A stretch of DNA of 64,000 bases, from positions 1 to 64,000 of the forward strand of contig JAFXYZ010000068.1 in NCBI GenBank assembly GCA_017541465.1, in the 5' to 3' direction. The translations under genes and the position numbers were made by a program. Origin of the DNA: a bacterium. Its GTDB lineage: Bacteria; Cyanobacteriota; Vampirovibrionia; Gastranaerophilales; Gastranaerophilaceae. Under the pieces are notes generated by a model. The model was not told the origin of the DNA. It did no database searches and worked only from the letters and a program-made list of their open reading frames with translations. How positions within the stretch are numbered: the first letter of the stretch is position 1; every line of letters starts with the position of its first letter. Positions 6,825 to 49,525 of this stretch are shown piece by piece.

Positions 6825-7577
6825 TTACCACGGATAATCGTCTTTAATCTGCCAGCTGTCTAACATAATCAATGCCAAACAACCATCGCCTTGCTGATTT
6901 TTATGGCACATGCTATCACTATTTGAAACCAAACTTGCTCTATTTTGGTCAAAATATCTTGGAACTAATTTTCCGTTTAATTGAGGAAATATACAATCAA
7001 TCATGTAATTAAAACCAAAAATATCTCGTCCTTGTTTATTTGGCTTCTTTTGACCATTTATGTCAACAAATATATTTGCCATTTTTTTATGGCCTGATGA
7101 AGAAAGATTTTGTCTTGCATTTACTGCAACTAAAGTACCATCAGATAAATAAAATCTATGGTAAGAATTATCAATATTTCTGCCTGTTGAACCATTAAGA
7201 TTGTTGTACTCAAATTTGCACTCATTAGTAGTTTGTAGTCCACAATCTTTTGCAATGCTTAAATATGGAAGCATATATTTTTTTGTAAAATATTGCGATG
7301 CTTCTCCCGTAACACCATCCATCATTTCCCAAGTTTTAATATCTCCATATTCAGCAACAGCTTTATAAGTTGTTTGAGAAAGAGTTGAATAAACCTTCTT
7401 TAACCTTGTAACTGTTTCTTCTTTTTGATGTTTGATAATTAAAGTCGGAACAGTAATAGCGGCAATAACACCAATGATAACAAGAGTTATCAACACTTCT
7501 GCAAGAGTAAAACCTTCTAATGTTTTACGACTGTAGGGGGGGGTAGTAAGAACTAAATCATTTTTTCTAATAATCAT
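6825..7577 (-). CDS. Type IV pilin-like protein A (DDYPW subfamily) with poly-C leader tract
   Basis: About 250 residues. A class III (prepilin-type) leader ends at Gly22, followed by FTLAEVLITLVIIGVIAA with Glu5, the classic substrate of prepilin peptidase PilD, and an N-terminal hydrophobic helix. The globular part has FYLSDGT, DINGQKKPNKQGRDIFGFNY, two Cys near the end (a possible disulfide loop) and the terminus WQIKDDYPW. I place the start at 7577 because GAAAGAGAGAA lies just before it, the same site as in pilin D; an ATG at 7595 is possible. Leader residues Thr12-Pro13-Pro14 are encoded by a run of eight C. No pilus assembly genes are nearby. Confidence 0.85.
   Translation of the reverse strand: MIIRKNDLVLTTPPYSRKTLEGFTLAEVLITLVIIGVIAAITVPTLIIKHQKEETVTRLKKVYSTLSQTTYKAVAEYGDIKTWEMMDGVTGEASQYFTKKYMLPYLSIAKDCGLQTTNECKFEYNNLNGSTGRNIDNSYHRFYLSDGTLVAVNARQNLSSSGHKKMANIFVDINGQKKPNKQGRDIFGFNYMIDCIFPQLNGKLVPRYFDQNRASLVSNSDSMCHKNQQGDGCLALIMLDSWQIKDDYPW
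7536..7543 (-). repeat. Homopolymer C8 tract in pilin A leader
   Basis: Eight C on the coding strand, read ACC CCC CCC TAC (Thr-Pro-Pro-Tyr), eight codons before the FTLAEV segment. A gain or loss of one base would shift the frame before the mature protein. Four other pilin genes have a matching tract. Confidence 0.9.
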
Positions 7578-13973: not shown

Positions 13974-14720
13974 TTAATAATTTATTGCACCTTCACGAAG
14001 AACTTTACAAGCACATCCAAAACCTGACGAATTATTATTATTGCACGCATTGACATCACAACCTGCAGGATATAAACCATTTTCTTTTAAAACAAATTCA
14101 AATACATCTTTACCAAAGGTATTTGGTTTTTTCATACCGTTCAAATCTACCCAAACTCTTGCACAACCATTTTGTGTACCATTACCGGCGCCGTTAACTT
14201 GACATGTACTATCTGCACTTCCGAATAAAATTTGTGTACCGTCAGCTAAGACAAGCATGCTGGTATCAGAATTGATAGATTTTGAGCTATAGACTGATTG
14301 ACTATACAAGCCTCGTAATTCTTGTGAAAAACAATTGCTTGAATATCCGCATTCTTTTGCATTATTTAAATATTTTTTATACATATCATACACATTCTTA
14401 TTAGTTGTTGCCCAATTGTTTTTTGGTAAACCTTCTTCGGCAATAATCAGATTAGTAGTTTGAGAGAGGGTTGAATAAGTTTTTTTTAGTTTAGAAACTG
14501 TTTCCTGATTGTTAGTTTTATTAATCAACGTCGGCACTGTCAAAGCAGCAATAACACCAATAATAACGAGGGTAATAAGAACTTCTGCAAGAGTGAAAGC
14601 CTTCTTCGTACACTGGACAGGAAGTATTGTGGGAGAGTGATTAACTGAAACAAGTTCCGTATAACATTTATTTAAATAATAGGGGGGGGTAGATGATTTT
14701 TGTTTATATAAATTTGTCAT
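13974..14720 (-). CDS. Type IV pilin-like protein B (VLREGAxNY subfamily) with long leader
   Basis: 248 residues. The prepilin cleavage site is after Ala41, followed by FTLAEVLITLVIIGVIAA, so this leader is much longer than in the other copies (15-22 residues). The extra 25 or so residues between Thr-Pro-Pro (11-13) and the cleavage site include YTELVSVNHSP, which looks like a translated repeat insertion. The mature part has STLSQTTNLIIAEEG, LVLADGTQI, VDLNGMKKPNTFGKDVFEF, paired cysteines and the terminus CACKVLREGAINY, close to pilin E but unlike A, C and D. Thr-Pro-Pro is encoded by a C8 run. Confidence 0.85.
   Translation of the reverse strand: MTNLYKQKSSTPPYYLNKCYTELVSVNHSPTILPVQCTKKAFTLAEVLITLVIIGVIAALTVPTLINKTNNQETVSKLKKTYSTLSQTTNLIIAEEGLPKNNWATTNKNVYDMYKKYLNNAKECGYSSNCFSQELRGLYSQSVYSSKSINSDTSMLVLADGTQILFGSADSTCQVNGAGNGTQNGCARVWVDLNGMKKPNTFGKDVFEFVLKENGLYPAGCDVNACNNNNSSGFGCACKVLREGAINY
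14682..14689 (-). repeat. Homopolymer C8 tract in pilin B leader
   Basis: Eight C on the coding strand, read ACC CCC CCC TAT (Thr-Pro-Pro-Tyr), residues 11-13. It equals the tract of pilins A and C. Confidence 0.9.
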
Positions 14721-23535: not shown

Positions 23536-24225
23536 TTACCACGGATAATCGTCAGCAATTCTCCAACCGTCTTTCAAGATTAATGCCCCACAATATAATC
23601 CGGTAGTTGCCTTGTTGCAATTATGTGTCTGTGACGATAATAAAGTTCCTCGAGAAGAGGCTGAACCACTAAATAATAATTTACCCGAATTAGTATAATA
23701 GTTTATCTGAAAAATATCTTTGCCCCATTTATTGGGTTTTTTATCTCCATTTATATCAATATACAATACCATTCTGTATTCATTTTCTTTCTCAACAGTT
23801 ATTGAAGTTCCATCACTTAAATAAAATCGAATTTTATTATCACCATAATGTCTTTCCTCACCGTTTAATGCATAAACCGTAGTATCATAATTACCTTCTT
23901 GAAGTGTAAGTGGTGCCTTTAATATACTTAAATATGGAATCATATACTTATTAACAAATGTTTTTGATGCTTCAGCAGAGCCTTCATCTGTTATTTCCCA
24001 AGTTTTAACAGGTCCGTAATCCATTATAGCTCTATTTGTTGTTTGTGCTAACGCAGAATAAGCCTTCTTCAGCCTCGTAACGGTTTGTTCCTTTTGATAT
24101 TTAGTAATCAAAGTCGGGACTGTTATTGCGGCGATTACACCTATAATAACGAGAGTTATCAGAGTTTCTGCGAGAGTAAAACCATTATTTTTGTAGGGGG
24201 GGGTAAGAACAGACTTATTTTTCAT
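23536..24225 (-). CDS. Type IV pilin-like protein C (DDYPW subfamily) with poly-C leader tract
   Basis: 229 residues with a short leader (15 residues, ending KNNG) and then FTLAETLITLVIIGVIAA, including Glu5 of the prepilin peptidase signature. Subfamily marks are KYQKEQTVTRLKKAYSALAQ, FVNKYMIPYLSI, FYLSDGT, DINGDKKPNKWGKDIFQINY, two Cys near the end and the terminus WRIADDYPW. It is thus a close relative of pilins A and D. Leader residues Thr8-Pro9-Pro10 are coded by a C8 run. The upstream sequence contains GGTATTATAAATAT, identical to that of pilin E. No pilus machinery is nearby. Confidence 0.87.
   Translation of the reverse strand: MKNKSVLTPPYKNNGFTLAETLITLVIIGVIAAITVPTLITKYQKEQTVTRLKKAYSALAQTTNRAIMDYGPVKTWEITDEGSAEASKTFVNKYMIPYLSILKAPLTLQEGNYDTTVYALNGEERHYGDNKIRFYLSDGTSITVEKENEYRMVLYIDINGDKKPNKWGKDIFQINYYTNSGKLLFSGSASSRGTLLSSQTHNCNKATTGLYCGALILKDGWRIADDYPW
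24196..24203 (-). repeat. Homopolymer C8 tract in pilin C leader
   Basis: Eight C on the coding strand, read ACC CCC CCC TAC, only five codons before the first residue of the mature pilin. Confidence 0.9.
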
Positions 24226-42040: not shown

Positions 42041-42766
42041 TTACCAAGGATAATCATCCTTTATTTGCCAAGAATCTTTCATAATAACTGCAGAACAATA
42101 TGCTCCGCTGCCAGTTTGTTTATTACAACAAATTGAACAACTTGAAAGAAGATAACTTCTTGGCGCATAATATGATGCAGGTAAAATCTTTCCTGTACGA
42201 CCATCATATTTAATTAAATAATTAAATTCAAATATATCTCTGCCAACTCTATTTGGTTTACGCTTACCATTAATATCTATTAACATAATAAATCTTTTAT
42301 CTGATTCAGTATTAAGTAAAACACCAGTAATAAAAGTACCATCAGATAAATAAAAGCGTGTTCTATTTTGATTTAAAGGCTCAGGTTCTGTTGATGAAAG
42401 AAAATAGAAAGAATAATCACAATCACCTGTATTTGATGTTTCACAATTTTTACTAATTTGAAGATATGGCAGAATATATTTGTTTGCAAAATCTACAGAA
42501 CCTTCACCAGTTCCGTTTTGCCCTAATTCCCAAGTATTCATTGGACCATTATCTGCAATTGCTCGCTGCATTGATTGCACAAGAGATGAATATACTTTTT
42601 TGAGACGTGAAACTGTTTGTTCCTTTTGGTATTTAGTAATTAAAGTCGGTATTGTAATTGCAGCAATAACTCCGATAATAACAAGAGTAATTAAAACCTC
42701 GGCAAGTGTGAAAGCGCTATTTTTGTGGGGGGGGGTAGGAATTAATTTATTATTCATATTAAACAT
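42041..42766 (-). CDS. Type IV pilin-like protein D (DDYPW subfamily) with poly-C leader tract
   Basis: 241 residues. The leader (MFNMNNKLIPTPPHKNSA, 18 residues) is followed by FTLAEVLITLVIIGVIAA. Mature features are KYQKEQTVSRLKKVYSSLVQ, FANKYILPYLQI, FYLSDGTFI, DINGKRKPNRVGRDIFEFNY, a Cys cluster (CSICC) and another Cys before the terminus WQIKDDYPW. Thr11-Pro12-Pro13-His14 is coded ACC CCC CCC CAC, a run of nine C. The leader resembles that of pilin E although the mature part belongs with pilins A and C. GAAAGAGAGAA precedes the ATG. Confidence 0.87.
   Translation of the reverse strand: MFNMNNKLIPTPPHKNSAFTLAEVLITLVIIGVIAAITIPTLITKYQKEQTVSRLKKVYSSLVQSMQRAIADNGPMNTWELGQNGTGEGSVDFANKYILPYLQISKNCETSNTGDCDYSFYFLSSTEPEPLNQNRTRFYLSDGTFITGVLLNTESDKRFIMLIDINGKRKPNRVGRDIFEFNYLIKYDGRTGKILPASYYAPRSYLLSSCSICCNKQTGSGAYCSAVIMKDSWQIKDDYPW
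42727..42735 (-). repeat. Homopolymer C9 tract in pilin D leader
   Basis: Nine C on the coding strand; the next codon is CAC, not TAC as in pilins A and C, so nine rather than eight keeps the frame. Confidence 0.9.
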
Positions 42767-48735: not shown

Positions 48736-48762
48736 GATAGTTAGAGATAAGAGGATAGTTTT

Positions 48763-49459
48763 ATGTTTAATATTAAAAATGTAGTTATTACTACCCCCCC
48801 CCACAAAAAATAATGCGTTTACCTTAGCCGAGGTATTAATTACGCTGGTTATAATCGGTGTAATTGCCGCTATAACTGTTCCGACTTTAATGAATAATAC
48901 TAATAATGAAGAATATGTTACAAGACTAAAAAAGGCATATTCAACTCTTTCACAAGCAACTAATCAGATAATATTTGAAGAAGGCACTCCTAAAGCAACT
49001 GTAGGAGGTTGGGCAACCTCTGTAGAAGAAATCTATAAACATTATAAAAAGCACTTATTGAATGCAAGAGATTGTGGTACAAGTAGCGGTTGTTTTGGAC
49101 AAGGAATAATTAAAACTCTTAAAGGCACAAATGATGCTGATTATGATAATTATACTACTTCACCAAAACTTGTTTTAGCAGATGGTACGCAAGTTATGTT
49201 CTTTGCAAGCGATTATTTTTCTCAAAGTTGCGAAGCAACATATGCTGGACTTGCAACACATGTTTGTGCAAATATCTACGTTGATGTAAATGGAAGAAGG
49301 AAACCAAATACTTACGGAAGAGATGTTTTTGTTTTTGCATTAAAAGAAAACGGATTACACCCAATAGGCTGTGAAACATCAATTGATAATTGCAATAAAT
49401 CAAGTATAGGTAATGGTTGCGCATGCAAAGTTCTTCGTGAAGGTGCGATGAATTATTAA
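48763..49459 (+). pseudogene. Type IV pilin-like protein E, frame broken in the leader (phase-off or decayed)
   Basis: The ATG at 48763 (AAGAGGA upstream) reads MFNIKNVVITTPPHKK and stops at 48811. In the +1 frame from 48815 a complete pilin follows: AFTLAEVLITLVIIGVIAA, LVLADGTQVMF, VDVNGRRKPNTYGRDVFVF and terminus CACKVLREGAMNY, so this is the partner of pilin B in the second subfamily. Removing one base in either the C9 run (48794-48802) or the A6 run (48805-48810) restores a full protein of about 231 residues. Comparison with pilin D (C9, A5) puts the extra base in the A run. The rest of the gene is undamaged, which argues for a recent or reversible change; a sequencing error is possible. 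Confidence 0.8.
48794..48802 (+). repeat. Homopolymer C9 tract next to the frameshift in pilin E
   Basis: Nine C, then ACA5 AT. The first codons read ACC CCC CCC CAC AAA AAA TAA. A single-base loss here or in the following A6 run reopens the frame. Confidence 0.9.
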
Positions 49460-49472
49460 ACTAATTTTTGTA

Positions 49473-49509
49473 CAACCCTCACCCCAGCCCTCTCCCCAGG
49501 AGAGGGGGA
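49473..49509. repeat. CCCTCTCC-family palindromic repeat after pilin E
   Basis: CCCTCTCCCCAGGAGAGGG preceded by ACCCTCACCCCAGC. It lies between the convergent ends of pilin E and murI. Confidence 0.65.
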
Positions 49510-49525
49510 AAAATAAATGTTTCAA

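Follow-up and report, generated by a model that had tools for sequence, protein, structure and literature searches.

The DNA analysed here, a stretch of 64,000 nt that we call the window, carries five distinct C runs of eight or more bases, and all five stand at the starts of pilin genes (Table 1). These runs give seven C8 matches, against 0.8 expected, a number that none of 100 shuffles reached; homopolymeric tracts are thus present in coding sequence far beyond chance, as is characteristic of a contingency locus. Four of the genes, pilin D among them, are in frame from their start codons. In the case of pilin E, translation from the ATG ends after 16 codons at the C9/A6 tracts, and the pilin goes on unbroken in the +1 frame, with its core off by one base, down to a C-terminus (...ACKVLREGAMNY) that is common to its subfamily. 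An earlier sequence-only reading had described this early stop and the undamaged pilin behind it, which a direct check of the sequence bore out to the base, as well as the subfamily terminus, which is present.

Table 1. Pilin genes and leader features located in the window
Feature	Position	Strand	Basis
Pilin E, ribosome-binding-like site AGAGGA	48750..48755	+	Read in sequence
Pilin E, start ATG	48763-48765	+	Read in sequence
Pilin E, short leader ORF, MFNIKNVVITTPPHKK then TAA (48811-48813)	48763..48813	+	Read in sequence
Pilin E, C9 tract, proposed switch	48794..48802	+	C-run counts and leader reading
Pilin E, A6 run (A5 in paralogues sharing the same motif)	48805..48810	+	Paralogue comparison
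Pilin E, prepilin core (FTLAEVL, start 48818) and body, 213 aa and stop (TAA, 49457-49459), intact in +1 frame	48818..49459	+	Sequence; AlphaFold2 pLDDT 93.4
Pilin D, in-frame paralogue; C9 tract 42727-42735	42041..42766	-	Sequence, leader reading
In-frame pilin paralogue; C8 tract 24196-24203	23536..24225	-	C-run and leader reading
In-frame pilin paralogue, long leader; C8 tract 14682-14689	13974..14720	-	C-run and leader reading
In-frame pilin paralogue; C8 tract 7536-7543	6825..7577	-	C-run and leader reading

When pilin E is joined across the frame break, it carries the N-terminal cleavage/methylation motif of PF07963 (27.7 bits, with a cut-off of 21.2); pilin D also matches TIGR02532. The AlphaFold2 model of the mature protein, of high confidence (Table 1), predicts a helix at residues 3-55 followed by a strand-rich mixed domain. 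The long N-terminal helix and globular C-terminal domain seen in this model are type IV prepilin-like. A Foldseek comparison of the model with the PDB gave no useful match.

The extra base of pilin E had been assigned to the A run by comparison with pilin D, which is indeed in frame and reads C9 then A5. This remains the most parsimonious placement, since A6 is found only in pilin E among the seven paralogues with (T)ACAAAAATA after the tract. A change in the C9 adjoining the A6 could likewise alter the frame. Across the genes, it is the C run that constitutes the proposed systematic switch (in relatives, a C or G run), and the A6 is a private feature of the pilin E copy. An in-frame ortholog of pilin E was sought in 60 genomes of the family; the best match outside its own genome is only 46% identical, so that there is no clear ortholog among them.

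The frame break of pilin E is not a solitary event. The source genome, a fragmented metagenome assembly of 2.12 Mb in 74 contigs, was searched by motif for pilin cores, and the leaders were then read, the start codons being picked by a simple ribosome-binding-site rule. There are 78 pilin-type genes, 63 of which show a ribosome-binding-like site, an ATG and then a run of C7-C10 before the FTLAEV core; the remaining ones have no run or break off at the end of a contig. A GA-rich site precedes the ATG in each of the 63, and a codon of the ATG frame starts on the base just ahead of the run (the ACC of a Thr-Pro-Pro motif). Counted by state, 25 genes are in frame, 24 are shifted by +1 and 14 by -1, a split compatible with equal thirds (p=0.17). 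In-frame and out-of-frame states therefore both occur in genes whose coding sequence is otherwise intact, as expected of contingency loci. In this regard, 14 genes sharing the leader element CTTCTTTT..AAAGAAG directly after the run are informative: run and spacer together measure 9, 10 or 11 bases, placing two genes in frame 2, four in frame 0 and eight in frame 1, respectively. Tract length thus differs among close copies with constant flanks, another feature of contingency loci. Conversely, the C runs of the genome belong almost entirely to these genes, 58 of the 63 distinct runs of C8 or more lying at pilin leaders among the matches listed (100 of 108 overlapping). The other five, among the same matches, comprise three similar-looking leaders cut by contig ends and two unrelated runs; among the matches listed, G000:C25:5756 (L116) and G000:C27:17617 (L117) are the only C9 runs with no pilin core downstream.

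Could the out-of-frame genes be ordinary pseudogenes, that is, pilin copies killed by a frameshift and now decaying? A few pilins of this genome are truly truncated (L015, L031 and L054, with mature frames of 92, 69 and 30 aa), but two of these have tracts in phase and the third has no tract, and none belongs to the out-of-frame set. In each of the 38 out-of-frame genes the body is full-length (201-240 aa), with a second lesion in none of them. Between tract and core, the pilin frame contains no stop in 1,728 codons, against 311 stops when this DNA is read in its two alternative frames. The N-terminal core is conserved alike in both states, with 129 of 1,140 codons changed in OFF genes and 90 of 750 in ON genes. 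We consider decay extremely improbable as an account of the set, and the reading of pilin E as an isolated pseudogene is rejected in view of the 38 intact out-of-frame genes. The sequence-only reading had preferred a reversible or recently switched-off gene over decay. The genome-wide evidence favours that preference; its treatment of pilin E as a single case does not stand, as the gene is one of 38, and a recent switching-off need not be invoked, because all 38 share the architecture and none shows decay.

A second alternative is that the genes are really in frame and the runs were misread or misassembled. The records are metagenome assemblies, and long C or G runs are error-prone on Illumina, with read failure at G tracts having been described (PMC9187656). 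The runs of the source genome, however, are merely C7-C10, and yet 38 of 63 genes are out of frame, in both directions; neighbouring genes of the window with A or T runs read intact. The direction also differs by genome, runs of 10 lying in frame 2 in G021 and runs of 12 in frame 1 in G049 and G077, among the matches listed. Such error is very unlikely to be the general explanation.

The same design, with C or G runs, is found in related Gastranaerophilales genomes. When about 85,000 species genomes were scanned for a pilin core preceded by a C7 run, matches came only from Candidatus Gastranaerophilales MAGs; the fixed FTLAE-type core of the pattern limits what can match, and the set scanned may by design have omitted the window genome itself. 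The G-run version of the pattern is present in 71 of 383 genomes of the family and 10 of 41 genera; 19 of 111 such matches are in frame, a fraction that is only indicative, as it comes from a subset among the matches listed. The number of pilin-like genes per genome varies from none to more than 55 within one family, even between genera of similar genome size.

In the case of G060 (CANRHZ, Lapin-023 bin10), C runs stand before one leader motif at 28 places. A start could be read for 19 genes, of which 12 have C12 (frame 2), six have C11 or C10 (frame 1) and one, L103, has C13 and is in frame; one copy with an interrupted run is also in frame. These runs of C10-C13 precede near-identical flanks, so that here, too, tract length varies while its surroundings do not. 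Many G060 contigs end in or beside a pilin C run (e.g., L121-L125, L127 and L143), and the loci thus also fragment this assembly. In another relative, G122 (CANPZP), contig 68 overlaps at its end with the beginning of contig 41; the 113 bases in common differ solely in the tract, C10 in the former and C9 in the latter. This pair, which lies in a relative and not at pilin E, is the only candidate for a same-locus difference in tract length; it fits what an assembler would leave when the reads of one locus disagree in tract length, and may alternatively represent two recent copies.

The sister genomes G127 and G129 present a different picture. Of 100 pilins examined in them, 71 have a tract of C or G, which is exactly ten bases long in 62 cases, and 60 of the 71 genes share one off-frame, with ON variants having runs of 11 or 8 in six genes. 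This pattern is awkward for switching, because both off-frames should be represented if switching were purely random, and the uniformity fits a default-OFF state or programmed slippage better than free random switching. A systematic contraction in assembly, in which a uniform loss of one base would turn an in-frame 11 into the observed 10, is a minor rival in these two genomes.

The constancy of G127 and G129 bears on programmed recoding, in which RNA polymerase or the ribosome slips on the C or G run, so that out-of-frame genes are expressed to some extent from unchanged DNA. The combination of length 10 and one off-frame in 60 of 71 genes, with both C10 and G10 and with unrelated leaders, speaks for it, as do the at least nine C9 tracts that lie in the same frame in G122. 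In the source genome, however, genes with the same leader element span all three frames, and no single direction of shift could rescue them; in G060, frames 2, 1 and 0 likewise coexist with near-identical flanks. The constant frame relation that marks a programmed frameshift is thus absent from the source genome, where all three frames occur, and is nearly attained only in G127 and G129. As a general account, we regard recoding as unlikely. A restricted version is still rather unlikely, although slightly less so: in some sister genomes, C10 or G10 would be programmed slippage elements, with dozens of pilins one base off and made only via transcriptional or ribosomal slippage, giving a constant low-level display of the whole repertoire, and DNA slippage to 11 would serve as the full-ON state. 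The uniformity also fits a mutational equilibrium in which tracts cluster around a single length, by chance an OFF one, and ON variants are less common; poly-G tracts of Campylobacter reportedly have a narrow equilibrium length. This equilibrium, or plain phase variation, is favoured by the coexistence of all three frames among the source-genome genes with one leader element.

All together, these observations lead us to regard pilin E as probably a phase-variable (contingency) pilin gene in its OFF state, one of about 60 genome-wide. The at least 38 intact out-of-frame pilins look like genome-wide reversible on/off switches for surface fibres, rather than one broken gene. In the mechanism that we propose from the differences between tracts, replication slippage (slipped-strand mispairing) at the homopolymer would add or remove a base. 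A total divisible by three would yield the complete prepilin; with any other total, translation would end early, giving a short leader peptide (11-35 codons among the leaders read) and no pilin. As a result, each cell lineage would show a different subset of pilins, heritable and yet reversible. Structurally, the pilin loci are those of contingency loci, with putative switching of expression; slipped-strand mispairing is the probable cause, and switching is presumably frequent as well as reversible. The products would be surface-exposed pilus subunits, the diversity of which may be the benefit under selection.

The contingency loci of Campylobacter jejuni mostly modify surface glycans and other factors. 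Strain NCTC11168 has 29 poly-G/C loci of this kind, and the resemblance lies in C or G runs of seven or more within the reading frames of an AT-rich genome, with ON and OFF states (PMC4965091); here, in contrast, the count is about double and nearly all runs fall in one protein family. The closest parallel in ecology is the sortase pilus of Bifidobacterium breve, a gut commensal in which a pilin gene is broken into two ORFs by a G run near its start and is expressed or not according to replication slippage; the predominant tract length can be an out-of-frame one, and tracts of in-frame length become enriched in the mouse gut (PMC9187656). That system differs in comprising two loci for sortase pili of a Gram-positive bacterium, whereas here there are more than 60 type IV-like pilin loci in a single genome, with C runs. 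In Neisseria, a homopolymer frameshift in pilC varies the type IV pilus phenotype, according to Jonsson 1991 as cited in PMC5084427; pilin variants also form a large repertoire in that genus. This repertoire arises through gene conversion into pilE, the one expressed locus, and the homopolymer sits in an accessory protein, unlike the present case, in which every complete pilin gene carries its own switch. A search of the literature outside subscription journals found no earlier account of pilins or phase variation of this kind in Gastranaerophilales or Melainabacteria. The novelty of the present case lies in its scale, its restriction largely to one gene family and the lineage concerned.

If this reading is true, dozens of genes in an uncultured order of gut bacteria encode pilins that can each be switched independently, which would point to immune or phage pressure on surface fibres as a force shaping these commensals. 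It would also explain why many pilins appear broken in assemblies, and it would offer a countable readout of population history from metagenomes. More than half of the tract-bearing genes would be missed or truncated by gene callers.

In many leaders, the stretch from tract to core includes repeated elements that stay in frame, such as FFWKRSRQENFRSFSSS and NPLPRRGN / SVGWAYLPN, some of them palindromic at the DNA level. Such repeats are found in L023, L036, L042, L044, L052, L062 and others, as well as in L003, L041 and L051, and they extend the leader to about 80 aa with the frame kept. Just 3' of pilin E, at 49475-49516 of the window, the intergenic sequence CAACCCTCACCCCAGCCCTCTCCCCAGGAGAGGGGGAAAAATAA resembles the palindromic repeat found inside several pilin leaders.
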